Of a stretch of 40,617 bases of DNA, positions 2,996 through 39,885 are shown one piece after another (positions within the stretch are counted from its first letter, which is position 1; each line of letters starts with the position of its first letter). The stretch spans positions 1 to 40,617 of the IMG/VR virus record IMGVR_UViG_3300035698_003935. The stretch is one strand, 5' to 3'. The notes below the pieces were generated by a model, which searched no databases, was not told where the DNA came from, and was given only the letters and a program-made list of their open reading frames with translations. This DNA comes from a virus. Made by a program: the position numbers and the translations under genes.

Positions 2996-3204
2996 AAAAC
3001 ATTAAAGATAGAGATTATTTAAGACATATAGATGAAATAAATTCTATAATGAAGGGCTCTGGTATAATATTTATGTATATGGGTATACCAATAAGCATGA
3101 GAAATACTAAGGAAGATATAATGAAAATATTACTTGATATGCATTTTGGGAACAATGAAAATAAGTATGAGAAAATAATTGGAAATATTTATATTAAAAC
3201 ATAA
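2992..3204 (+). CDS. Small hypothetical protein
   Basis: A 70-residue frame of unknown function, joined by an ATGA overlap to the LicD-like gene and by a one-base overlap to the next gene. Mixed charged and hydrophobic sequence with several Met and Ile; no recognised motif or clear membrane span. Support comes only from the tight operon spacing and the AT-rich codon use it shares with its neighbours. Confidence 0.55.
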   Translation: MKNIKDRDYLRHIDEINSIMKGSGIIFMYMGIPISMRNTKEDIMKILLDMHFGNNENKYEKIIGNIYIKT

Positions 3205-3461
3205 TGAAAATAATAAAAGAATTAGTGAGTAGTGATTTTAAATTGATTCATCTTAGGTTTGTAGATTTTACTGGAATGTTGGTTGATGGTTTTGAACTAG
3301 TGAATACTGAAGAAAGAATAAGTATACCTTTTAGAGGAGATATGAAGGTTTCAGACTATAAGAAGTCAGAACCTATTTCGACTACTACTGATTATACTGA
3401 TGAAGAATATAAAGATATGTTAGATAAGCAAATAAAAAAATATTTAAACAAAACACAATGA
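3204..3461 (+). CDS. Small hypothetical protein
   Basis: An 85-residue protein with no recognised family. The N-terminal half looks like a small beta-rich domain (LIHLRFVDFTGMLVDGFELV), followed by a short charged tail. Its ATG shares bases with the upstream stop, and its end overlaps the next GT2 gene in an ATGA, so it is translated as part of the glycan operon. Confidence 0.6.
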   Translation: MKIIKELVSSDFKLIHLRFVDFTGMLVDGFELVNTEERISIPFRGDMKVSDYKKSEPISTTTDYTDEEYKDMLDKQIKKYLNKTQ

Positions 3462-4180
3462 AAATAGCAATCTTTACCATGACAAGGGATAGAATAGACT
3501 ATACTAAACGGACATTTAAAGCGTTAAAAGAAACCGCTGGAATGGACTACGACCATTATGTATTAGATAATGGGTCTAAAGATGGAACACGAGAGTGGCT
3601 TAAGACACAATCTTTCGCGGGCTTATTTTTTTCCCCCGATAACAAAGGATTGTGGCAGGGAATTAACACGATATTAACAGAGACTAAATTCTTCGAAGGA
3701 TATGACCTTGTGTTGAAGCTCGATAATGACGTAGAATTCCCTCATAAGAACTGGTTAAAAGATATGGTGGAGGCATATAAAAAGCTAGGAGCTAATTGGA
3801 TAGTATCTCCCTTTGTAGAAGGGGTATGTAATGGAGAGGGTGGAGCACCTAGACTAGAAATGTGTGTTGAAGAAGGTGTTACTGTGGGAAGGTCAGCTCA
3901 TGTAGGAGGTATGTGTATGTTGACAAGTGCTGATAATTATAGTGAAATGTTCCCTAACCTTGACTTATCGTCTGGATGGGATTACTTCTTCTGTACAAGT
4001 TCTCACTGTAGGAGTGGATATATAGAGGATATACACGTTAAACATATGGATACAAGCGAAGGACAGGAAGAAACTAACCCAGACTATTATAACAGAAAGA
4101 TAGAAGAAAGTAAAATAATTTATAAGGGAGATGTAAACAATTATGCAGGAATTCATACCAATGGAGACAATACCAAATGA
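3458..4180 (+). CDS. GT2-type glycosyltransferase
   Basis: A 240-residue GT-A glycosyltransferase. It begins with the first strand of the fold (KIAIFTMTRDRIDYTKRTF), has VLDNGSKDGTREWL at 36-48, the nucleotide-binding region of GT2, and LKLDNDVEF at 87-94, a DXD variant (D89, D91) for the metal and diphosphate. A later His-rich stretch (EDIHVKHMDTSEGQ) is often near the C-terminal active site. The next gene starts 38 bases before its stop. It probably extends or caps the glycan made by this island. Confidence 0.85.
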   Translation: MKIAIFTMTRDRIDYTKRTFKALKETAGMDYDHYVLDNGSKDGTREWLKTQSFAGLFFSPDNKGLWQGINTILTETKFFEGYDLVLKLDNDVEFPHKNWLKDMVEAYKKLGANWIVSPFVEGVCNGEGGAPRLEMCVEEGVTVGRSAHVGGMCMLTSADNYSEMFPNLDLSSGWDYFFCTSSHCRSGYIEDIHVKHMDTSEGQEETNPDYYNRKIEESKIIYKGDVNNYAGIHTNGDNTK

Positions 4181-5013: not shown

Positions 5014-5176
5014 AAGATGTTTCTCTGAGTATTCTCCATATGGTAAAGAAAGTAATAAAGAATATTGGTGTGAAATACCTATATGGATAAAGATTAAAGA
5101 TAAATTTAAGATTAAAAAACCAAAGGGATTATGTCAATTCTGTAATCCTAAGAGTAAATTTTACTTATATGAATAG
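4991..5176 (+). CDS. Small zinc-ribbon-like protein
   Basis: A 61-residue protein with two cysteine knuckles, CKRC near the start and CQFC near the end, a pattern typical of a small zinc ribbon. Function unknown. It overlaps the glycosyltransferase before it by 23 bases and the PEP mutase after it by 8, so it is translated together with them. Confidence 0.6.
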   Translation: MQTNNNCKRCFSEYSPYGKESNKEYWCEIPIWIKIKDKFKIKKPKGLCQFCNPKSKFYLYE

Positions 5177-5996
5177 AATAATTAAAGAGATTGAGGGGAA
5201 AGGATATATAAGAATCCTTGAAGCTCACAGTGGATTGTCTGCTAAGGTAGTAGATGATTCTAAGTTTGATGGTATTTGGGAGAGCTCATTGACAGACAGT
5301 GCTTCTCGTGGTCTACCAGATACAGAGTTAGTTACTATGGATATGAGACTAGATAAGATTAGAGAGATAATAAACATCTCTAATAAGATTATAATTGTTG
5401 ATGGAGACACTGGAGGACAGGTCAATCACTTCCCTTATTGGGTAAAACAGTTAGAGAGAGAAGGGGTAGACGCTGTAATCATAGAAGACAAAGCATTTCC
5501 CAAAGTAAACTCTCTAGCTATTAAAGGTAAACATCAACTAGAAAAAGTATCTAAATTCTGTGAGAAAATTAAAGCAGGTAAGGCTGTAGCTAATAATATA
5601 ATGATTATAGCGAGACTAGAGTCTCTTATAGCAGGACATAGTATGGATGAAGCTATGAGAAGGGCTACTAGATTTATAAACGCAGGAGCAGATGGTATTA
5701 TGATTCACTCTAAGGTTAAAGTAGGCGATGAAGTATTAGAATTTGCAGGAAGATTCAAAGATAAATATCCAAACGTTCCATTTGTGTGTGTCCCTACAAC
5801 ATATAATCACATTGATGATGATGAACTAAGAGATTTTGGTTTTAATATAATTATTCATGCTAACCATTTACTAAGGGGTTCACTATTAGCTATGCAAAGA
5901 ATAGCCTATGATATATATGACGCTGGAAATAATAAGGTAGTAAACTCACAAGTAATAGATGTAAAAGATTTATTAAAATTAACTAAAAGTGTATGA
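5169..5996 (+). CDS. aepX: Phosphoenolpyruvate phosphomutase
   Basis: A 275-residue PEP mutase of the isocitrate lyase/PEP mutase superfamily. It rearranges phosphoenolpyruvate into phosphonopyruvate, forming the carbon-phosphorus bond that opens nearly all phosphonate pathways. Seen here: EAHSGLSAKVV at the N-terminus, DGDTGG at 78-83 (metal-binding Asp), EDKAFPKVNSL at 106-116 (the EDK-x3-K-x-NS signature that separates mutases from lyases), ARLESLIAG, HSK at 180-182 and ANHLLRGS near 231. The length is normal and all key residues are present. It overlaps the next gene by an ATGA, and the decarboxylase halves lie just downstream. I am confident in this call. Confidence 0.95.
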   Translation: MNRIIKEIEGKGYIRILEAHSGLSAKVVDDSKFDGIWESSLTDSASRGLPDTELVTMDMRLDKIREIINISNKIIIVDGDTGGQVNHFPYWVKQLEREGVDAVIIEDKAFPKVNSLAIKGKHQLEKVSKFCEKIKAGKAVANNIMIIARLESLIAGHSMDEAMRRATRFINAGADGIMIHSKVKVGDEVLEFAGRFKDKYPNVPFVCVPTTYNHIDDDELRDFGFNIIIHANHLLRGSLLAMQRIAYDIYDAGNNKVVNSQVIDVKDLLKLTKSV

Positions 5997-6352
5997 GTAA
6001 AGCAGACCAATTTATGTATGAAATAGACTTGTTTAAAATTATAGATGCTTTAAGAGCTTCTAAAATATATCTATATAAAGTTAAAGAACATATGGGTAAT
6101 TGGAAAAAAGATAATATTAGGAAAGCACTATTTGAGGCTGTTGATGATAAAATTATTATGGGTCTAAAGATATTTACAAATAGAGATATTTTCCATTCAG
6201 TTAGAACAGCATTGTCTGCTCAAGAGAACAGTCCGTCACCAGAAGAAATAGCTGAAATATTAGGTAAATGGGAAACAATAAGAAGAATAGATTTATATAT
6301 CGATTTTATATATAGTAAGGTATCAAAAGAAACTAAACAAATAAAAGTATGA
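5993..6352 (+). CDS. Hypothetical protein within the phosphonate operon
   Basis: A 119-residue, mostly helical, charged protein (IDALRASKIYLYKVKEHMGNW and similar stretches) with no cysteines and no family I recognise. It is linked by ATGA overlaps to PEP mutase on one side and the decarboxylase alpha half on the other. That position, inside an otherwise ordered pathway, suggests a part in phosphonate or glycan metabolism or a helper role, but the sequence shows no more. Confidence 0.65.
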   Translation: MSKADQFMYEIDLFKIIDALRASKIYLYKVKEHMGNWKKDNIRKALFEAVDDKIIMGLKIFTNRDIFHSVRTALSAQENSPSPEEIAEILGKWETIRRIDLYIDFIYSKVSKETKQIKV

Positions 6353-6663
6353 TAACAGGAGTACCAGATAGTAAGCTTAAAGATTGGCTTAAAGACAAAG
6401 ACTACATCATAGCCTGTAATGAAGGTCATGCTGTAGGTATGGCAGCGGGTCATTACCTAGCGACAGGAGAGACAGCTACTGTATTTATGCAGAGTGATGG
6501 GTTTTGTAATGCTATGAACGCATTAACATCCCTTGTAATACCTTATGATATACCAATAGATTGGGTTATAAGTATTAGAAGTGATTGTCCTCAGCATCAA
6601 GTTATGGGAGAGAATATACATAAGCTGTTAAGTATCTTTAATATTAAGGCAAAAATTCTATGA
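6349..6663 (+). CDS. Phosphonopyruvate decarboxylase, alpha (N-terminal) half
   Basis: A 104-residue thiamine-diphosphate enzyme half. NEGHAVGMAAGHYLATG at 24-40 holds the Glu (E25) that activates the cofactor, and VFMQSDGFCNAMNALTSL near 45-62 is the pyrimidine-domain core. The set fits phosphonopyruvate decarboxylase, which makes phosphonoacetaldehyde and pulls the unfavourable mutase reaction forward. The matching diphosphate-binding half is encoded separately at 7340. The region before NEGH is short compared with single-chain enzymes. Sulfopyruvate decarboxylase is the close alternative, but PEP mutase in the same operon favours phosphonopyruvate. Confidence 0.88.
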   Translation: MITGVPDSKLKDWLKDKDYIIACNEGHAVGMAAGHYLATGETATVFMQSDGFCNAMNALTSLVIPYDIPIDWVISIRSDCPQHQVMGENIHKLLSIFNIKAKIL

Positions 6664-7343
6664 AGCATTTAATAATAGGTTACGGAGAAATAGGTAAGGC
6701 TATAGACAAGGTTCTGGGAGGAGTAGAACACATGGATTATATGGATGATGTGTCTAAAGCAGACATACTACACATATGTTTTGGATACAATAGTAAATTT
6801 GTAGACAATGTTAATAAATATATAATACAAACTGGTGCTAAGTTATGTATCATTCATTCAACTGTAGACATAGGTACAACAGAAAGGATAGGAGATATTG
6901 CAGTGCATAGTCCAGTAAGAGGAGTACACCCTCACCTAGAGAAAGGAATTAGAACTTTTGTCAAGTACTTTGGTGGAACGCACGCTAGAATGGCAGCTAA
7001 TATATTCTCTAAATTAGGGCTAAAGACTAAGTGTTTTAAAGATTCAAGGATTACAGAGGTAGGAAAGATGATGAGTACTACTAACTATGGTTGGAACTTA
7101 CTCTTTGAGAAATGGTTGCACGAGTATTGTGAAGACCATGATGTAGATTACAATATGGTATACAATCATTTCGGTCTAACATATAATGCAGGTTATAGTA
7201 AATTAGGTATGGGTCACGTTAAGAGACCTTTGTATTTACATATGGAAGGTAAGCTAGGAGGACATTGTATCCTTCCTAACTGTGAAATACTTAAAGACTT
7301 TGAACCTGCTAAAATAATCTTAAAAAAGAATAGAACTTTATGA
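6660..7343 (+). CDS. NAD-binding dehydrogenase, UDP-glucose/6-phosphogluconate dehydrogenase-like
   Basis: A 227-residue Rossmann protein. GYGEIG at 7-12 is the dinucleotide loop; IIHSTVDIGTTERI at 64-77 resembles the STVPPGTT segment of UDP-sugar dehydrogenases; GKLGGHCILPN near 198-208 resembles their GGHC catalytic-cysteine motif (C203). It is about half the length of a true UDP-glucose dehydrogenase and lacks the C-terminal sugar-binding domain. It lies exactly between the two decarboxylase halves and overlaps both by four bases. It may oxidise a sugar nucleotide or act on a phosphonate intermediate; the sequence does not decide. Confidence 0.65.
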   Translation: MKHLIIGYGEIGKAIDKVLGGVEHMDYMDDVSKADILHICFGYNSKFVDNVNKYIIQTGAKLCIIHSTVDIGTTERIGDIAVHSPVRGVHPHLEKGIRTFVKYFGGTHARMAANIFSKLGLKTKCFKDSRITEVGKMMSTTNYGWNLLFEKWLHEYCEDHDVDYNMVYNHFGLTYNAGYSKLGMGHVKRPLYLHMEGKLGGHCILPNCEILKDFEPAKIILKKNRTL

Positions 7344-7813
7344 CTAGAGAAGACGCTATAAATAATATACTAGATGAGATAGGTGATGCCCTTGTAATAT
7401 CTACTACTGGTAAGATTTCTAGGGAACTATATGAACTTAGAATTAAGAGAGGAGAAGAACCTAATGACTTCTATATGATGGGTAGTATGGGACATGCTCT
7501 CCCTATAGGTATAGGAGTTGCTCTTGCGACAGATAAAGAGGTTGTTGTGATTGATGGTGATGGTGCTGCCCTAATGCAAATGGGAGCTATCGCTACAATG
7601 AAACACTATAAACTAAACCATAAAAATCTAAGACATTATGTATTAAATAATAACTCTTATGATTCTACTGGAGGACAAGAGACAACATACTTTCCAGAAC
7701 TGTTCCCTAATACAGAGACTATATTTGTAGACAAAGGTTGTAGGGATGACCTAGGAAGAATACCATTGACGCCTAAACAAATAGTAAAAAACTTTAGAAA
7801 TAAAATAAAATAA
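7340..7813 (+). CDS. Phosphonopyruvate decarboxylase, beta (C-terminal) half
   Basis: A 157-residue thiamine-diphosphate-binding half. TTGKISRELYELR at 22-34 and FYMMGSMGHALPIGIGVAL at 44-62 are hallmarks of the phosphonopyruvate/sulfopyruvate decarboxylase group. The cofactor motif runs from GDG at 73-75 to NN at 103-105, and YDSTGGQ follows. Together with the alpha half 677 bases upstream it should form an alpha-beta enzyme. It overlaps the dehydrogenase gene in an ATGA. Confidence 0.9.
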   Translation: MTREDAINNILDEIGDALVISTTGKISRELYELRIKRGEEPNDFYMMGSMGHALPIGIGVALATDKEVVVIDGDGAALMQMGAIATMKHYKLNHKNLRHYVLNNNSYDSTGGQETTYFPELFPNTETIFVDKGCRDDLGRIPLTPKQIVKNFRNKIK

Positions 7814-7814
7814 T

Positions 7815-7955
7815 ATGAAATTTATAATATGGTATTTAGTATTTTGGGGAATGATTAGTATAGAACAATACAAGGGAGATGAGAAACCAAGCATAGGTTT
7901 GATAATGTTTATGTTGGTTATATTCTTTGGATTTTATGAATTATTTATTAAATAA
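7815..7955 (+). CDS. Small two-span membrane protein
   Basis: A 46-residue frame starting one base after the upstream TAA. It has two hydrophobic stretches (FIIWYLVFWGMI and IGLIMFMLVIFFGFYELFI) separated by a charged loop, so a small integral membrane protein is likely. It ends in TAA, then T, then the ATG of the alcohol dehydrogenase, the TAATATG junction common in this genome. Function unknown. Confidence 0.6.
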   Translation: MKFIIWYLVFWGMISIEQYKGDEKPSIGLIMFMLVIFFGFYELFIK

Positions 7956-7956
7956 T

Positions 7957-8727
7957 ATGAAAAAGCAAGAAACTAATTTTATAACACACAGGGATGTACC
8001 TGCTAACCCTACCCTAGATTTTGCAGAGAAAATGGTTGCAAGATTTAGTAAAAAAGATAAGGAAGGTAAGAGAAAGTTTGATGAGATAATATCTTGTGGT
8101 GGTGGTAGCACCATAGATGTGTGTAAATATGTCGCTACAAAACTAGGACTATATCATACAGCTATCCCTACAACAGCTGGTACTGGTAGTGAGGTAACAA
8201 GTTATGCTGTCTTAACTACTAATGGAAAGAAGATAACTTATAAGGTAGACCCACCAGATGAATATGCACTTATACCTAAACACTTAGAATCTCTTGATTA
8301 TATGGGTAGAGTTTCAGGGGTACTAGATGCTTATTGTCATGCTATAGAATCGTTATGGTCTCCTAAAAAGACGCCACAATCTACTATGTATTCTTATATG
8401 GCTATAGATATTATTGAAAGATATGGTAAATTATTCTGTCATGAAGGAATATGTGGTAAAGATATGTTGGAGGCATCAAATTATGCAGGAAGGGCTATAG
8501 AAATAACAGCAACATCTAAAAATCATGCTATGTCTTATTACCTTACAGAAAAACATAACATACCTCATGGAATTGCTTGTGGTATTATGATGAAAGCACA
8601 AAACATAGAAGAATTTGATAAATTATTTTTAGACTTAGGAATAGATTATAAAAATATATTAGAAAAAGTAGATATAAAAGCACTAGAAACTAGAGCTAAG
8701 AAATCAGAAAGGTATACAAATATATGA
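7957..8727 (+). CDS. Iron-type alcohol dehydrogenase, likely phosphonoacetaldehyde reductase
   Basis: A 256-residue group III (Fe-type) alcohol dehydrogenase. I start at the ATG at 7957, which follows the membrane-protein stop. CGGGSTIDV at 47-55 binds NAD(P), PTTAGTGSEV at 71-80 is the next family motif, and the four metal ligands are present as D124, H128, H190 and H204 with the spacing usual for the family. At about two-thirds of normal length it lacks the first nucleotide-binding strands and the C-terminal helices. Known homologues beside PEP mutase reduce phosphonoacetaldehyde to 2-hydroxyethylphosphonate, and that is the likely job here; the substrate is inferred from context. Confidence 0.85.
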   Translation: MKKQETNFITHRDVPANPTLDFAEKMVARFSKKDKEGKRKFDEIISCGGGSTIDVCKYVATKLGLYHTAIPTTAGTGSEVTSYAVLTTNGKKITYKVDPPDEYALIPKHLESLDYMGRVSGVLDAYCHAIESLWSPKKTPQSTMYSYMAIDIIERYGKLFCHEGICGKDMLEASNYAGRAIEITATSKNHAMSYYLTEKHNIPHGIACGIMMKAQNIEEFDKLFLDLGIDYKNILEKVDIKALETRAKKSERYTNI

Positions 8728-19630: not shown

Positions 19631-19795
19631 TTAAGGGGAAACTCTTTCCGTCCATGGTGTTACTCCAACTAGAGATTTTTCAATTATAATCTTTCCTCCA
19701 GTTTCTAATAAGATATAGTCTTCTACTTCATCTAACAGAAAATTACCTTCCCAAGTTGTAGAGATTGCTGACCTTTCGCTCCATGTTGTTGCCAT
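19631..19795 (-). CDS. Small virion-module protein with W-x-E-R ends
   Basis: A 54-residue frame (ATTWSERSAISTTWEGN ... GVTPWTERVSP). The near-repeat TTWSERS and TPWTERV at either end suggests a small beta-hairpin unit like those in appendage proteins. The start context AACAATATG matches neighbours. It lies between a hairpin and the collagen-like gene. Function unknown; probably a small structural or linker protein. Confidence 0.55.
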   Translation of the reverse strand: MATTWSERSAISTTWEGNFLLDEVEDYILLETGGKIIIEKSLVGVTPWTERVSP

Positions 19796-19818
19796 ATTGT
19801 TTATATTAAATTCTAATT

Positions 19819-19856
19819 AGAGAGGACTCCACCATAAACCACCACGTCCCCTCTCT
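19819..19856 (-). other. RNA hairpin between glycosyltransferase-like and fibre genes
   Basis: AGAGAGG at 19819-19825 pairs with CCTCTCT at 19850-19856; AC and GT add two pairs after a two-base bulge. The loop is about 18 bases. No T-run follows in the minus direction, so it may be an RNA processing or stability element rather than a simple terminator. Confidence 0.45.
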
Positions 19857-19868
19857 ATCAGAATTCAA

Positions 19869-20489
19869 TTAGATTCTTACGTCTAATTTCTTGCTGTTGA
19901 GTAAATCAAATGTTTTGTAATGGGAACATTTGTAATCCCAATTAACCCATATACCATATCCCTCATCTCTACATCTGTCACTAAATGCTAGGTCACTTCC
20001 AGTTGTTTTGCATCCAGTTTCTTTATCTAATATACTAGAGAATGGTGTTTTCATGTGTTCTAATACCTCTCGTCTCATGATAATACAGCCAGCTCCGACT
20101 CTATCTACCATTTGCCAACCATGTCCGCTCTTTAATGCTCGATACTGTTTATTCTTTTTGTTATAAACATTATATTTTACAACGTTATTCTTTGCTAATA
20201 TAGGTGTTGGTAAAGATATTAAATCTTTATCTTCCGTTATTAGTTCAAATAAGTTACAGTCTTTTGGGGGATTGTCTTCATCCATCATTATAAGATGAGT
20301 TGCTTCTGTTTCTAAGAACTCCTGTACTATAAAGTTTCTGTTCTCATCCACCCCTAGTCTGTTAGAAAATAATGTTTTTACATCATATCCATGATTTGTA
20401 CCGACCATTACCAATCTTATGACTTCGTTAGCTACCTGGTCTGTTACCATTCCACGAGTGAGTATTGCTACAAAGATTGTTTGTTTCAT
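19869..20489 (-). CDS. GT-A-like glycosyltransferase in the virion operon
   Basis: A 206-residue protein. MKQTIFVAILTRGMV starts the fold, IMMDEDNPP at 68-75 holds a DXD motif (D70, D72), RVGAGCIIMRREVLEHM matches the acceptor loop of GT2-like enzymes, and GSDLAFSDRCRDEGYGIWVN gives the catalytic acidic segment. Good overall fit to small phage GT-A glycosyltransferases. It starts one base after the holin-like stop and precedes the 54-residue and collagen-like genes. Confidence 0.75.
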   Translation of the reverse strand: MKQTIFVAILTRGMVTDQVANEVIRLVMVGTNHGYDVKTLFSNRLGVDENRNFIVQEFLETEATHLIMMDEDNPPKDCNLFELITEDKDLISLPTPILAKNNVVKYNVYNKKNKQYRALKSGHGWQMVDRVGAGCIIMRREVLEHMKTPFSSILDKETGCKTTGSDLAFSDRCRDEGYGIWVNWDYKCSHYKTFDLLNSKKLDVRI

Positions 20490-20680: not shown

Positions 20681-21697
20681 TTAATCTTCTATTGGTTCTC
20701 TCTTAGAGTTTATATGTTCTACACTGTTCCAATCGCTTATGCCGACTCCTATTGGTTTTTTCCAGTTAGAGTTAACCATACACTCTGTATCTTGTTTAAA
20801 TAACATTAGTTTACCATCTATACCTAATGCTAAGTGTTGACTACTACCTTCTACTAATAGATACATTTGCTTTTCTTTTATATTCATAGGCATTTGTTCA
20901 AATTGTTTAAGTATTATATTATATTGTAAACCTGAATGTCCAAATTGAAAGTCAGGTGAAAATTTAATATGTCCATGTCCATTTCTTTCGTAGTGGTCTA
21001 ATCCTAAAATTGTTCCATCACTCTCTACTTTATAAATCATTATAGCGTGATTAGGACTGTGATATGCTATATTGTTTTGATATGTTCCGTCTGTTATTGG
21101 ACTACTTGTACTATAACTAACTTGTATCGGTCCATACTTTAATTGTTGTGTTATATCTATTTGATTGACAGGTACTCTTGTATATGTTACTTCAAAGAAT
21201 TTATTAAACATTAAACCTTTTGATAAGTTCTCTACAGTTACATCTTCATAATAATCATCCCAAGTAAATACTGGTGTTCTTTGTTTATATGGAAAATCTA
21301 AATATTTTTCTGGTAATAATCCATAATCTCTTATAGCATCTCCTACTTTACTAAACCAATTACCACTATGAGTTGTATCTGATAGTTTAGCTATAAATCT
21401 ATCACTACAATTTATATCTCCATTATCATCATATAGTTCTAGTACCTTTAATAATCCTTCTACTATTGAATCATTCTCTCCCATTTTAGCTAGAGTAGTT
21501 TCTATACAGTCTAACGCTGAAAACGTCACACAAGCCATTGTGTCGCCATACAGACCTATCTGAGATTCCCACCTAGGTATAAATGGTTCACAGTTTCCAG
21601 ATGGAAAGAGTACTTCTTTAACCTTATTAGAACCTAAATTTTGATACCAATCTTTCGGACTGCTCTTATCTATAAAACCATATTTCATTTTATCCAT
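20681..21697 (-). CDS. Papain-like (C1) cysteine peptidase
   Basis: A 338-residue protein. Q46 and the stretch DTMACVTFSALDCIE put the catalytic Cys at C56, as in the papain QGxxGSCWAFS region; LKYGPIQVSYS (186-196) matches the usual GPV-x-V strand; and SPNHAIMIYKV puts the catalytic His at H217. A candidate Asn follows near GLDHYERNGHGH. About 75 further C-terminal residues hold beta-rich sequence. There is no signal peptide. Beside a holin-like gene it may act as a lysis enzyme cutting peptide links in the wall; virion protein processing is the alternative. It stands behind a large structured leader. Confidence 0.75.
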   Translation of the reverse strand: MDKMKYGFIDKSSPKDWYQNLGSNKVKEVLFPSGNCEPFIPRWESQIGLYGDTMACVTFSALDCIETTLAKMGENDSIVEGLLKVLELYDDNGDINCSDRFIAKLSDTTHSGNWFSKVGDAIRDYGLLPEKYLDFPYKQRTPVFTWDDYYEDVTVENLSKGLMFNKFFEVTYTRVPVNQIDITQQLKYGPIQVSYSTSSPITDGTYQNNIAYHSPNHAIMIYKVESDGTILGLDHYERNGHGHIKFSPDFQFGHSGLQYNIILKQFEQMPMNIKEKQMYLLVEGSSQHLALGIDGKLMLFKQDTECMVNSNWKKPIGVGISDWNSVEHINSKREPIED

Positions 21698-21709
21698 ATG
21701 TTTGAATTT

Positions 21710-21830
21710 TAATAGTTAGCTTTCAGCTTGTTAATTATTAGAGCAGATTATGACTAACTGCTTCTAGCACTTTACACCGTGCAATAGGTTGACCTTTTGA
21801 TTTTAATAATTAACTGGAAACTAACTATTA
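21710..21830 (-). ncRNA. Long cloverleaf-like inverted-repeat element upstream of the peptidase gene
   Basis: TAATAGTTAG (21710-21719) pairs perfectly with 21821-21830, 21720-21726 pairs with 21814-21820 at six of seven positions, and TTAATTATTA (21731-21740) pairs perfectly with 21804-21813, with a four-base bulge. The 63-base interior has three hairpins: AGCAG/CTGCT (21742-21762), GCAC/GTGC (21767-21782) and AGG/CCT (21786-21795). It lies a few bases upstream of the peptidase ATG. A related element heads the terminase operon. I see no minus-strand promoter just upstream, and a terminator-like hairpin on the plus strand follows, so the transcribed strand is uncertain. Confidence 0.6.
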
Positions 21831-21880
21831 GGGTTTGAGTGGACTTACGCTTTCGCTGCCACCCCATTTTTTTAGTTTTT
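21831..21880 (+). terminator. Terminator-like hairpin reading plus strand
   Basis: GTGG (21839-21842) pairs with CCAC (21859-21862) and GGG (21831-21833) with CCC (21863-21865); runs of T follow at 21867-21873 and again near 21876. No plus-strand gene precedes it. It could end a plus-strand antisense or structured RNA covering 21710-21830. Confidence 0.35.
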
Positions 21881-28647: not shown

Positions 28648-28761
28648 TTATTTCCTTTTAAAGAAATCTCTTACACTTTGTCCAGGTTTTAGTTCTATTA
28701 CTTTGCCATCAGGTAATGTAATAGACCTTCTTCTACTGGTTATGTTTGTTTTTACTGTCAT
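28648..28761 (-). CDS. Tiny hypothetical protein
   Basis: A 37-residue protein (TVKTNITSRRRSITLPDGKV, then IELKPGQSVRDFFKRK): one beta-hairpin-like section and a basic helix. GGAAGGAA lies about eight bases before the ATG, between the coat-gene hairpin and this gene. Function unknown. Confidence 0.5.
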   Translation of the reverse strand: MTVKTNITSRRRSITLPDGKVIELKPGQSVRDFFKRK

Positions 28762-28778
28762 AATTGTTTCCTTCCAGT

Positions 28779-28812
28779 CCTTGAGTATCTCGGACTAGCG
28801 AGTACTCAAAGG
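28779..28812 (-). other. Hairpin just after the coat gene
   Basis: CCTTGAGTA (28779-28787) pairs with TACTCAAAGG (28803-28812) with one bulge, and CTCG (28789-28792) pairs with CGAG (28799-28802) inside. It sits 8 bases beyond the coat stop. No T-run follows in the minus direction, so it more likely slows 3' decay or partly terminates, a usual way to raise coat mRNA over downstream genes. Confidence 0.55.
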
Positions 28813-34176: not shown

Positions 34177-34195
34177 TTCTTTTATATTACTTATT

Positions 34196-34306
34196 TAATT
34201 AACTTTCAGCTGAGGAAATAGTGTCGTGATAATCTTCAGATAGTAGCGAACTAACACTCCGATTACCTATATCATAGGACACTATCTCCTAATTGAAAAT
34301 TAACTA
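34196..34306 (-). ncRNA. Structured 5' leader of the virion operon
   Basis: On the minus strand the outer stem joins 34196-34208 to 34294-34306 and the inner stem joins 34214-34225 to 34278-34289 (12 pairs). Two plus-strand mismatches in these stems (34203/34299 and 34217/34286) become G-U pairs in the minus RNA, favouring that strand. The interior has two small hairpins (ATC/GAT near 34232-34241, TAGT/ACTA near 34242-34254). It starts about eight bases after the promoter -10 and ends about 20 bases before the first ATG. It shares AGCTGAAAG-x-TAA with the element at 21710-21830. Confidence 0.65.
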
Positions 34307-34313
34307 TGCTTCA

Positions 34314-34342
34314 ATTATATACTATTTTCTCAATGTTGTCAA
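34314..34342 (-). promoter_or_regulatory. Consensus sigma-70 promoter of the virion operon
   Basis: TTGACA (34337-34342) and TATAAT (34314-34319), read on the minus strand, are separated by exactly 17 bases. Both hexamers are perfect matches to the consensus. Transcription would start near 34307, at the foot of the structured leader. Confidence 0.85.
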
Positions 34343-35026
34343 ATAGGTGTTCTCTATATCGCCCTATGTTTCTAGTATAGTATATATAGTCCGTTAAGCA
34401 TATGTTGTTTAGTGCCTATACACTGTTAAGTTATATTATAACACGAAATAGTGCACAAATACCCCGTGTATTTAGAGTTGGTCATTTTCTTTTCCCTCTA
34501 ATAGTAAATGATTAGGGGTTGACAAATCTCTAATATCGCCCCCTTTTCGTTATTCTTTGATATATGGGGTAAAAAGACCTCTTTATTGTGTGTGTTAAGT
34601 ATAGTGTTTAGATGGTTTTATTTATATCTCTATATAAAATATATACAAGAAGTAACTTGGGCTTTACCCCCCTCTATGCCTATTCAATAGTGTAGTGTGT
34701 GTGTGTATGTCCTGTATACAATAGATATAACAACCAACTGTATGGATACATACTGGAGGGGGGTTATTGTCTAACCTATACTATACATACATATTATACT
34801 TAAGTTATGAGGGGATTTGTAGCTCATGAGTAGCTTAGTAGTATTGTATTGTTATCCTATACTATCCTATAAACTGTAAGTTATTAGTGATTTATGGTGT
34901 TTAGTTAAATTATGGACAATCCTAAGGCGATTTAAGGCGATAGAATTACCTGACTTGATACTTGTATCGTGTTAAGTATAAAATAAAGTATCTTATCTAG
35001 ATCTAAAAGTTATCAACAGTTAGCTA
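34343..35026. other. Non-coding AT-rich region, possible origin
   Basis: I see no gene here on either strand. It holds a perfect 9-bp inverted repeat of C and G runs (ACCCCCCTC at 34666-34674 with GAGGGGGGT at 34756-34764), a GT-repeat tract near 34690-34710, repeated TTAAGTATA-like words, a tandem AAGGCGAT pair near 34925, and a DnaA-box-like TTATCAACA at 35010-35018 (one mismatch from TTATCCACA). Together with outward-facing promoters at both edges, this is the best origin candidate. Confidence 0.4.
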
Positions 35027-35842: not shown

Positions 35843-36325
35843 ATGATTAGAAAGATACAATTTAACACAAATAAGAAGCGTAAACATTTTAGTTTACGCC
35901 TTTTTATTTACTCAAGTATGTTGTGTTGTCTTCTAATAAGTTATTGTAGCGAATATACAACTATCAAGATAGATGAAGTCAACAAAAGAATGGATACAAT
36001 TCGAAACCGAGAGGCGACCAAAAGCGTCATTAACTATTATGAAATGGATATTATTACTACTGCTTACTCTGAGCTAGATAGCTGTCATTACCCTCTATGT
36101 ATTATGGCGAATGGTGAGGTTGCACATGTGGGGGCTATCGCTTGTAATTTCCTGTCATTTGGTACTCGTGTTGAGATTGATGGGGTTATCTATGTGGTGA
36201 AAGATAGACATGCTAAATGGTTAGAAGATAGGATAGATATATTCTTTGGTTATGGGGGAGATGCTCATGAGAGAGCACTACAATATGGTAAAAGAATAAA
36301 GAGGGTAAAAGTACTTGACTTTTAA
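35843..36325 (+). CDS. Membrane-anchored 3D-domain (double-psi beta-barrel) protein, wall-hydrolase candidate
   Basis: A 160-residue protein. A basic N-terminus (NKKRKHFSLRL) and a hydrophobic segment (FIYSSMLCCLLISYC) form a signal anchor or lipoprotein-like leader. A linker helix leads to a 3D domain from about residue 72: ITTAYSELDS, MANGEVAHVGAIACN, FGTRVEIDG, VVKDRHAKW, EDRIDIFFG, with the three conserved Asp residues. Such domains occur in lytic transglycosylases (MltA-like) and could cut the wall. Starting at 35843 gives a sensible leader; the ATG at 35918 would remove its positive charges. A terminator hairpin lies within the leader codons. Confidence 0.7.
   Translation: MIRKIQFNTNKKRKHFSLRLFIYSSMLCCLLISYCSEYTTIKIDEVNKRMDTIRNREATKSVINYYEMDIITTAYSELDSCHYPLCIMANGEVAHVGAIACNFLSFGTRVEIDGVIYVVKDRHAKWLEDRIDIFFGYGGDAHERALQYGKRIKRVKVLDF
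35876..35910 (+). terminator. Intrinsic terminator inside the start of the 3D-domain gene
   Basis: GCGTAAAC (35878-35885) and GTTTACGC (35892-35899) form a perfect 8-bp stem with a six-base loop, followed by CTTTTTATTTA. It lies 35 bases into the reading frame. It could attenuate transcription so that the gene is made only when ribosomes or an antiterminator disrupt the hairpin. Confidence 0.65.
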
Positions 36326-36343
36326 ATTTAGGTATGCTATACT
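36315..36343 (+). promoter_or_regulatory. Strong early promoter
   Basis: TTGACT (36315-36320), 17-base spacer, TATACT (36338-36343), with TATGC giving an extended -10. It overlaps the end of the 3D-domain gene and drives the genes from 36373. Confidence 0.8.
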
Positions 36344-36574: not shown

Positions 36575-36805
36575 ATGAGTGTAAATAATATCATAAGACA
36601 ATATCTTTATGATAGATATCCTGATATAGTTCATGGGGGAACACTAGAAAGATTAGCATTTGATGAAGGATATAAAGCCTCAACATTTGATAGAGCTTGT
36701 AGAAAATTAAGAGAGAATAATATCATAGAAAATATACCAAATGAGAAAGGACACACAAGATATAGATATATTTTAGAGTCTGATAGACCATTATTAGAGA
36801 GCTAA
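36575..36805 (+). CDS. Winged-helix-like small protein
   Basis: A 76-residue protein with a helix-turn-helix layout (GTLERLAFDEGYKASTFDRACRKL) followed by a short basic wing (NIIENIPNEKGHTRYRYI). It probably binds DNA and may control nearby promoters. Starts four bases after the previous stop. Confidence 0.6.
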   Translation: MSVNNIIRQYLYDRYPDIVHGGTLERLAFDEGYKASTFDRACRKLRENNIIENIPNEKGHTRYRYILESDRPLLES

Positions 36806-36828: not shown

Positions 36829-36857
36829 TTTTCCCTACAACAAAAGTATGCTACAAT
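36829..36857 (+). promoter_or_regulatory. Extended -10 promoter before the structured RNA
   Basis: TACAAT at 36852-36857 with TATGC just upstream; the -35 (TTTTCC, 36829-36834, 17-base spacer) is poor. The TATGCTA extended -10 matches the other two early promoters. A TTATCCCCA word nearby (36814-36822) resembles a DnaA box with one mismatch. Confidence 0.5.
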
Positions 36858-36873
36858 ATAATTAATTAGAAAA

Positions 36874-36976
36874 TAGTTATCTCGGTCATCAATCTTAATT
36901 GATTGATATATGTATCCTAGGAAAGATTACGAGAGAAATTTGTCATTAACCTTCGGGTTGATGACTGAGATAATTA
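36874..36976 (+). ncRNA. Structured RNA, 5' domain
   Basis: TTATCTCGGTCATCAA (36877-36892) pairs with 36958-36973 at all 16 positions (one G-U), extended by three more pairs outward. The interior holds a small AATC/GATT hairpin (36891-36904, competing with the last stem pairs) and AACC-TTCG-GGTT (36948-36959), a UUCG-capped hairpin sharing two bases with the outer stem. It begins about 15 bases after the promoter and, like the two minus-strand elements, starts with ATAGTTA. Confidence 0.65.
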
Positions 36977-37180
36977 ATCTAATTGCAAGTTCTATTATGA
37001 GAGGACAATGACACTCATAAAGTCGCAGGACTTCATACTCTTATACCTATACGAAGTAAGTAATAAAATTGTATCAATTTAACAGTTACCACAAGACCAA
37101 GACATATTCTTGGGTGGGGAACACAACAATAACCTATTACTTCGGCAGGGCAAGAGGAGAAGGGAGCAAAGACTAGTTCC
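36977..37180 (+). ncRNA. Structured RNA, 3' domain (three-way junction)
   Basis: CGAAGTAA (37052-37059) pairs with TTACTTCG (37137-37144), with CCT/AGG closing it outside. Inside are AAATTG/CAATTT (37066-37080) and a nested hairpin built from GTT/AAC, CCAC/GTGG and CCAAGA/TCTTGG (37085-37122). AAGTC/GACTT with a GCAG loop (37020-37033) lies just before. No usable frame crosses it. The whole 36806-37216 interval is non-coding, so this looks like a discrete RNA or a long leader of the gene at 37217. Confidence 0.6.
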
Positions 37181-37182
37181 AT

Positions 37183-37199
37183 GGGGGAGGGGGGGGTGT
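37183..37199 (+). other. G-run with quadruplex potential
   Basis: A stretch of 16 G or A bases that is nearly all G, from 37184 to about 37197, in otherwise AT-rich DNA, 18 bases before the next ATG. It could form a G-quadruplex in RNA or DNA. An assembly length error in the run is also possible. Confidence 0.45.
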
Positions 37200-37216
37200 T
37201 AATTAACAGTAACAAT

Positions 37217-37375
37217 ATGAAATGTCCAATATGTGAAAGAAAGATGGAGAGGAGAAGACACGAGAAGATATATCCTAAGTTGCTAGAGAAACATTATTAT
37301 TTTACTGAATGGGATTATTGCGATAATTGTAATTGGGTACAACATTATGAAAAGTATAAAATAAAAAACATATGA
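37217..37375 (+). CDS. Small zinc-ribbon protein
   Basis: A 52-residue protein with CPIC at 3-6 and CDNC at about 34-37, a clear zinc ribbon. I start at 37217 (AACAATATG, beginning MKCPIC) rather than at an ATG inside the G-run. It overlaps the YopX-like gene by four bases. Confidence 0.65.
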   Translation: MKCPICERKMERRRHEKIYPKLLEKHYYFTEWDYCDNCNWVQHYEKYKIKNI

Positions 37376-38119: not shown

Positions 38120-38308
38120 ATGGACATTAATTTATGTGTGACAATAGACGACCAGAAAATAGAAAGGTCTTATGAGTGTGAACATATTACTCATATTAAC
38201 TGGAATGAGATTATGAGTGACTTATATGATGAATATGAAGATATAAAATGGGCAGATGACTGTGAAGAAGAAAAGGAGAGCGAAAGGAACGCTGATAAAT
38301 TAAAATAA
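38120..38308 (+). CDS. Small acidic protein
   Basis: A 62-residue, very acidic protein; the C-terminal half (DLYDEYEDIKWADDCEEEKE) is mostly Asp and Glu. Phages often use such acidic proteins as DNA mimics or inhibitors of host enzymes, but nothing here shows that directly. Confidence 0.55.
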   Translation: MDINLCVTIDDQKIERSYECEHITHINWNEIMSDLYDEYEDIKWADDCEEEKESERNADKLK

Positions 38309-38320
38309 TTCATTGAAAAG

Positions 38321-38431
38321 ATGTTGGTTCGAATCCAACCATTAGGATTAATTATCTTAATAAGTAGCTTAATTCTAGCTTGGTATAGCAAAGGATTATA
38401 TGCCCTAGGCGACTATAAGCTCCCAAAATAA
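38321..38431 (+). CDS. Tiny membrane protein
   Basis: A 36-residue protein with one span (LGLIILISSLILAWY). The first codons contain GGTTCGAATCC within a perfect 5-bp stem, identical to a tRNA T-arm (see findings). GAAAAG stands just before the ATG. Confidence 0.5.
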   Translation: MLVRIQPLGLIILISSLILAWYSKGLYALGDYKLPK

Positions 38432-38486
38432 TACAATGCTAGATGTTTTGGGACATCCTTTTAGTGAATTATTAACAAATAAAAAT

Positions 38487-39447: not shown

Positions 39448-39885
39448 ATGGAACAGTCACCATTAAAAATGGAAATCATTAAGATTAACGGGATAGAACT
39501 CGTTGAAAAGGGAAATAACACTAATAAATGGAAAGAATATGCTGTAAAAGTAGACGATTATATTAAAGGAACTCATTATTCTATACCATTAAAGAAAAAA
39601 GATGGAGAAGAAACTGCCGCTTATAAAACATTTAAGGCTAAAAGGTCTGAATGGGAAGAACAGTTTATAGCTAATCAATCTGTAGAGGTAGGGGTAGCTT
39701 GTAGTGAAAAGATAGTAGATTGGAAGAGAGAAGGTAAAGAGGGAACATCTACTTATAAGACAATTAGGTTTTTTAAAGAAGCTGATGAATTAAGAAATGA
39801 ATTATCTAAGGAAGAATCTATTCAGACAGCACCAGAACAACCTAAGAATACAGACCCAATGCCACTAGAAGACATACCATTTTAA
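39448..39885 (+). CDS. ssb: Single-stranded DNA-binding protein (SSB-like)
   Basis: A 145-residue protein. The first 100 residues are beta-rich as in an OB fold (IIKINGIELVEKGNNTNKWK, VEVGVACSEKIVDWK), and the chain ends DPMPLEDIPF, matching the acidic D-D-D-I-P-F tip by which bacterial SSBs recruit replication proteins. AAAGGA precedes the start by ten bases. It probably coats phage ssDNA and brings in host replication enzymes, since the phage has no polymerase I can see. Confidence 0.75.
   Translation: MEQSPLKMEIIKINGIELVEKGNNTNKWKEYAVKVDDYIKGTHYSIPLKKKDGEETAAYKTFKAKRSEWEEQFIANQSVEVGVACSEKIVDWKREGKEGTSTYKTIRFFKEADELRNELSKEESIQTAPEQPKNTDPMPLEDIPF

Follow-up and report, generated by a model that had tools for sequence, protein, structure and literature searches.

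Between a plus-strand gene ending at position 36805 and a gene for a 52-aa Cys-rich protein starting at 37217, the viral genome analysed here (IMG/VR virus record IMGVR_UViG_3300035698_003935, 40,617 bases, called the window in the following) carries a strongly folded stretch, E1, which raises the question of whether this stretch specifies an RNA element and, if so, what such an element would do. Since its two ends overlap by 127 bases, the record probably represents the complete circular assembly of a tailed phage. Hereby, the terminase, portal and capsid genes are located on the minus strand and the early genes on the plus strand. The first gene 3' of E1 (37217-37375, plus strand) encodes a zinc-ribbon-like protein and lacks a Shine-Dalgarno sequence. 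Only 9 of the 52 start regions examined contain a Shine-Dalgarno-like string; ribosome-binding models for E. coli may thus not apply to this phage. Elsewhere in the window, a group of phosphonate-type genes (5169-8727) comprises a PEP mutase, an iron alcohol dehydrogenase and a TPP enzyme, the N- and C-terminal halves of which are separate with another gene between them, alongside several glycosyltransferases. A 145-aa protein (39448-39885) possesses an acidic DIPF tail as found in single-stranded DNA-binding proteins and shows no confident family match.

The sequence-only reading, from which this analysis started, had described the locus as a non-coding RNA of no recognised class, without a reading frame across the fold. 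Both statements are confirmed. In the region 36865-37216 no frame has the codon usage of the phage's genes. Two small ORFs were rejected as genes, a 33-aa ORF at 36910, the one of the two that was scored, with a codon score of 0.008 compared to 0.10 for the 5th percentile of coding sequence, and a 24-aa ORF at 37008. The covariance search that had been proposed as a check was carried out against Rfam 15 and returned no family, neither at the gathering score nor up to an E-value of 2 for the window, and the locus alone merely gave chance matches of microRNA type with E-values between 1 and 8.5. ARAGORN detects no tRNA or tmRNA in the window, and for a group I intron there is no Rfam match, the flanking genes being separate and intact. 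A blastn search of E1 against 50,697 phage records yielded no match at an E-value of 1.

Upstream of the fold, an extended -10 promoter element, TATGCTACAAT, is located at 36847-36857 (plus strand), for which transcription is predicted to start at about A36865. Its -35 box is weak. The element copies TATGCTATAAT/TATACT from other promoters of the same phage and its relatives: it resembles TATGCTATACT at 36315-36343 of the window as well as the late promoter box TATGCTATAAT of the related contig L003, and the late promoter of a further relative, L005, carries a like motif (ATGCTATAAT / CATGCTATAAT). The late promoters of both relatives have perfect -35 boxes. The earlier claim that the RNA has its own promoter hence appears plausible. 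The predicted start lies 7 nt past the -10 box and coincides with the first paired base of the hairpin described below. No terminator is seen between 36865 and the ATG at 37217, which argues for the 5' leader of an early operon rather than for a separate non-coding RNA, as had originally been suggested. Our main reading, to which we assign a probability of about 0.5, is that the folded RNA would form a 5' leader of approximately 350 nt of the early operon and act in cis on that message.

The predicted leader begins with a long 5'-terminal hairpin, E1a or P1 (36865-36983, plus strand). Here, positions 36874-36895 pair with 36955-36976 in 22 consecutive base pairs, four of them G-U, closing a loop of 59 nt, and the stem is extended by AUUAGA/UCUAAU (36865-36870/36978-36983). 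The pair probabilities amount to 0.99 for the 22-pair stem, which has the top score among all long stems in the window, and to 0.89 for the extension. The hairpin folds with a z-score of -4.17, and none of 300 dinucleotide shuffles folds as well. The strong folding noted earlier thus applies in full to this part of E1, the second half being only moderately beyond chance (z about -3). An alternative UUCG hairpin of 10 pairs (36942-36965, plus strand, -11.9 kcal/mol) competes with the long stem for the strand 36955-36965. Since it uses the 3' strand of the long stem, the two structures are alternatives and not neighbours. Accordingly, the initial description of a 19-pair stem together with a UUCG-capped hairpin needs to be revised: both exist, the stem comprising 22 pairs and sharing one strand with the hairpin. 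The UUCG hairpin could form first during transcription and later be displaced by the long stem.

The second, multibranched domain, E1b or P2 (37009-37201, plus strand), is closed by UGACACUC (37009-37016) pairing with GGGUGUUA (37194-37201) with a pair probability of 0.88. For the domain at 37007-37203 the z-score is -3.53, with none of 300 shuffles as good, and for the stretch 36985-37215 it is -2.84. Within this domain, the helix CGAAGUAA/UUACUUCG (37052-37059/37137-37144; pair probability 0.93) encloses the helix AAATTG/CAATTT plus a nested arm, so that the three-way junction with a nested arm of the sequence-only reading is indeed found (P3, 37052-37144, plus strand). The nested hairpin P4/P5, CCAC-AAGA-CCAAGA-CAUAU-UCUUGG-GUGG (37089-37117, plus strand), is the part that recurs in another phage (L031, 1082-1111; see below). 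The previously noted GCAG hairpin (AAGUC-GCAG-GACUU, 37020-37033, plus strand) is present in the sequence as a possible structure, but is not favoured in the ensemble. Towards its 3' end, the domain carries the G-tract GGGGGAGGGGGGGG (G5AG8; 37183-37196, plus strand), the longest G run of the window, which partly overlaps the 3' strand of P2.

A comparison with relatives had been suggested in order to look for covariation. Although relatives of the terminase are numerous, all close contigs end before reaching the E1 locus, and neither the search through the early proteins nor the genome contigs searched yielded relatives. Most of the related contigs (L002-L006, L091-L097, L105) end within about 2.2 kb on the upstream side of the terminase gene, as would be expected for a genome end or an assembly break at this place. 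In the terminase large subunit of one of them, L105 (about 620-1690), an in-frame insertion ending in THN-S interrupts the Walker A motif (TQYGK / SHT) and matches LAGLIDADG/Hom_end; the same is found in L097, L095 and L096, whereby the insertion was read directly in L105 and L097 and deduced from the match ends in L095 and L096. Judged from these motifs, the insertion is an intein, possibly of class 3, as its first residue is neither Cys nor Ser.

A covariance model (R1) built from positions 37047-37150 of the window alone was used to search 97 sources (0.94 Mb). Apart from the window itself, R1 matches two sites in L031, one of 80 YopX loci, and weakly one site elsewhere (E-value 7.5). The first L031 match (1081-1113; E-value 0.7 over all sources searched) reads ACCACACGACCUAGACUUAAUUCUAGGGUGGGA compared to ACCACAAGACCAAGACAUAUUCUUGGGUGGGG in the window. 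Common to both are the stems CCAC/GUGG and CCnAGA/UCUnGG and the bulge A-N-G-A, and one compensatory double change converts an A-U into a U-A pair. The second L031 match (3737-3825, minus strand) lies inside a coding gene and was taken as chance. The L031 core is part of the non-coding leader of the first gene on the plus strand of that phage (ATG at 1207), with an 18-pair hairpin (881-898/954-971) upstream and GGGGATGGGGG downstream. This upstream hairpin of the early leader (881-971) is terminator-like, running into U7. As cut, the two leaders measure 353 and 363 bases, the start of that of L031 not being established. The two phages are only distantly related, with portal proteins 27% identical (E-value 4e-51) and terminases without significant similarity.

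The exact geometry of the core hairpin is found in 33 hairpins within 0.99 Mb, of which only those of the window and L031 combine downstream G-tracts with an outer helix of 7 or more pairs; this filter was chosen after both hairpins had been seen. Likewise, of the more than 100 records covered, only the window and L031 have CCAC-ANGA-CCnAGA/UCUnGG-GUGG within an outer helix together with a downstream G-tract and a position before the first early gene, a family definition that is post hoc. No further core members were detected in the 100 records behind the loci or in five Manatee Spring phages, and blastn searches with the core hairpin and with the L031 leader gave only short chance matches. 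A plain alignment of the leader of E1 with that of L031 gives a weak signal (17 of 2000 shuffles do as well), and the P2 domain of L031 as a whole shows no fold beyond chance (z -1.0). The case for homology thus builds on the hairpin, the compensatory change and the context and not on plain alignment, and we consider true homology of the two core hairpins to be probable. Since there are two members and the statistics for the remainder of L031 are weak, E1 and L031 can be regarded as a candidate, but not as a proven, RNA family. In terms of covariation, the comparison hence provides no close relative spanning the locus, but one probable distant homologue with one compensatory base pair. One part of the leader is found again at the corresponding position in a distant phage, and the leader thus probably represents a genuine RNA element without a name, which would control the early message or protect it. 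L106, which carries a homologue of the window's Cys-rich gene, was also considered and rejected as a homologue of E1, as it has neither sequence similarity to E1 nor an R2 match. Upstream of this gene, L106 contains 829 nt of non-coding, strongly folded sequence (3130-3958; z -6.2) with a tRNA-like stretch, for which Rfam gave no match of note.

Long hairpins are found at further gene junctions of the phage. The late operon carries a promoter of the consensus TTGACA-17-TATAAT (34342-34314, minus strand; 12 of 12 consensus positions) with a predicted start at about 34307, followed by a 5'-terminal hairpin (34307-34186) with its stem beginning at 34306; together they form the element E3 (34180-34342, minus strand). 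Two more are intercistronic and lie between late genes, namely E2 (21706-21836, minus strand), a stem-closed element before the gene 20681-21697, and E4 (19795-19866, minus strand), a long hairpin directly after the stop of the gene 19869-20489. E2, E3 and E4 serve here for comparison with E1. In L003, the terminase of which is 91% identical, a 145-nt stem-closed element of different sequence is located immediately 3' of the late promoter. At the early promoter, the late promoter and the L003 late leader alike, the predicted start lies 0-2 nt from the stem foot. In the more distant L005, L091 and L092 the late promoter is present without a 5' hairpin, the feature thus being clade-specific and dispensable at the late-promoter site. 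In L092, L105 and L095, one stem-closed element precedes the homologue of gene 20681-21697 (site Y) and a second one is located elsewhere (site X), with z-scores between -4.8 and -6.8 for X and Y, compared to only -2.6 for L107 at the same place. When sites X and Y, not E1a, are aligned (three rows from close relatives, a small data set), all six variable pairs still pair and no exchange breaks a pair; one is a double change (A-U to C-G) and five are one-sided changes through G-U. Moreover, in E1a, E3, E4, L003, X and Y, but not in E2, folding is better for the sense strand than for its antisense counterpart, which points to selection on RNA. To judge from these comparisons, the predicted stem-closed RNAs at gene junctions of the phage and its relatives keep their position while their sequence changes. 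A sequence search would thus miss such elements, whereas they are found when fold and position are used as search criteria.

The motif ATAGTTA, noted before as a common start of E1 and two minus-strand elements, is indeed located at the foot of each of them. As a genome-wide signal it was rejected, with 17 occurrences found and 21 expected. The related ATAG[TC]T marks the stem foot in 5 of 11 elements compared to 1.1% of background windows, an enrichment that is suggestive only, as it was defined post hoc and two of the five elements, both from site X (L092 and L105), are homologous to each other. GCTGAAAG, common to E2 and E3, is near chance. A 22-position stem at 38304-38473 with a T-arm-like GTTGGTTCGAATCCAAC was set aside, since it contains a possible 36-aa membrane peptide (38321-38431, with a hydrophobic segment), though the codon score of this frame is also non-coding. 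In addition, a G6-G10 tract occurs upstream of the late promoter in the window (34667, minus strand) and in the relatives checked that cover the region (L003:266, L005:161, L092:685), and the divergent intergenic region at 34681-34800 is, for its composition, more strongly folded than any other 120-nt stretch of the window. The capsid gene is followed by a hairpin in the window (about 28750-28805, minus strand), L005 (5766-5809) and L092 (6330), which begins with TTTCCTTTG in the window and L005.

How could such a leader work? RNA polymerase would start at about A36865, and the first approximately 120 nt would fold into the long hairpin, the foot of which is the 5' end itself. With the 5' end placed in a stem, the message would offer no single-stranded 5' end for 5'-dependent decay of the RppH/RNase E or RNase J type. 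The long stem may at the same time provide double strand for RNase III processing, its 22 consecutive pairs agreeing with the length of about 20 or more base pairs of such processing sites. The second domain (36985-37201), with its bulged recurring hairpin and G-rich closing strand, adjoins the first gene and would probably set early gene expression by binding a host factor, the ribosome or the polymerase. Hereby, we infer transcription, 5'-end protection or processing as well as any ligand of the second domain.

Known systems resemble parts of this proposal. The early RNase III sites of T7 are long, imperfectly looped double strands, located in leaders and between genes. In S. aureus, RNase III cuts a long hairpin in the cspA leader, which increases the half-life from less than 2.5 to more than 16 minutes (PMC3386247); the folds predicted here are alike in that long, imperfectly looped double strands lie in leaders and between genes. 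Furthermore, hairpins at the 5' end make mRNA more stable in both E. coli and B. subtilis (PMC3997798). The stabilising stem-loops of ompA, papA and aprE, from work cited there, sit like E1a at or near the 5' end of the leader and flush with the start, which in our case is predicted, whereas the E1 stem is much longer (22 pairs) and encloses a long loop, with another structured domain downstream of it. The large RNAs GOLLD and ROOL of phages and bacteria are likewise ornate and non-coding (PMC12286853); E1 is less than half their size, and cmscan assigns it to no Rfam family.

A more far-reaching and tentative idea is that the E1 and L031 leaders are the first two members of an unnamed class of phage early-leader RNAs, in which the bulged core hairpin and the G-rich closing strand would directly engage the transcription or replication machinery of the host, in a phage for which no replication genes were recognised; we regard it as possible, yet doubtful. 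Somewhat less likely still is an antitermination leader, in which the nascent RNA would bind the transcribing RNA polymerase so that terminators further down the early operon are ignored. Its model is the put RNA of phage HK022, which acts on polymerase as RNA alone and is, like E1, a structured RNA between an early promoter and the first early gene (PMC9378689). E1 is larger and of different architecture, so that the likeness is one of location only. The recurrence of the folded RNA in a distant phage and the terminator-like U7 after the L031 5' hairpin would suit this explanation, but the Rfam search, which was the comparison made to put in sequence and fold, gave no match, the early operon shows no internal terminator known to need antitermination, and similar long hairpins lie deep inside the late operon.

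Improbable in our view is a pre-primer of replication. In ColE1 RNA II and at the mitochondrial CSB II, a folded transcript ends in a G-tract, and E1 likewise has a G-tract end, the likeness extending to G-tract and fold only; the transcript would form an RNA-DNA hybrid there and be cut to prime replication. G5AG8 at the 3' end is unique in the window, a G-tract also lies downstream of the core in L031, and no polymerase, helicase, primase or initiator was recognised among the phage proteins scanned, which would fit a host-driven origin. However, many of these proteins have no family match, so that genes for replication could have escaped notice, part of the G-tract is base-paired in the predicted fold, and the GC skew tracks the gene strand without an independent origin signal. 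A free small RNA acting in trans, for which the plausible promoter and the stable fold would speak, is similarly improbable, given that no terminator is seen before the next gene and that the one probable homologue also leads an operon. An inverted repeat that acts solely as DNA, be it as an operator, a cruciform or a recombination site, would account for a long inverted repeat in a regulatory region, but is very improbable: on the transcribed strand the stem contains four G-U pairs, the sense strand folds better in most elements, and the substitutions at sites X and Y go through G-U.

In conclusion, structured leaders of uncultivated phages are hardly catalogued. If the core shared by E1 and L031 is a true family, it would represent a testable cis-acting RNA at the start of early transcription in phages for which no cultured model was found. 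The hairpins of E2, X, Y and E3 may in turn serve as a natural set for testing in which way a phage influences the decay of the messages it produces.
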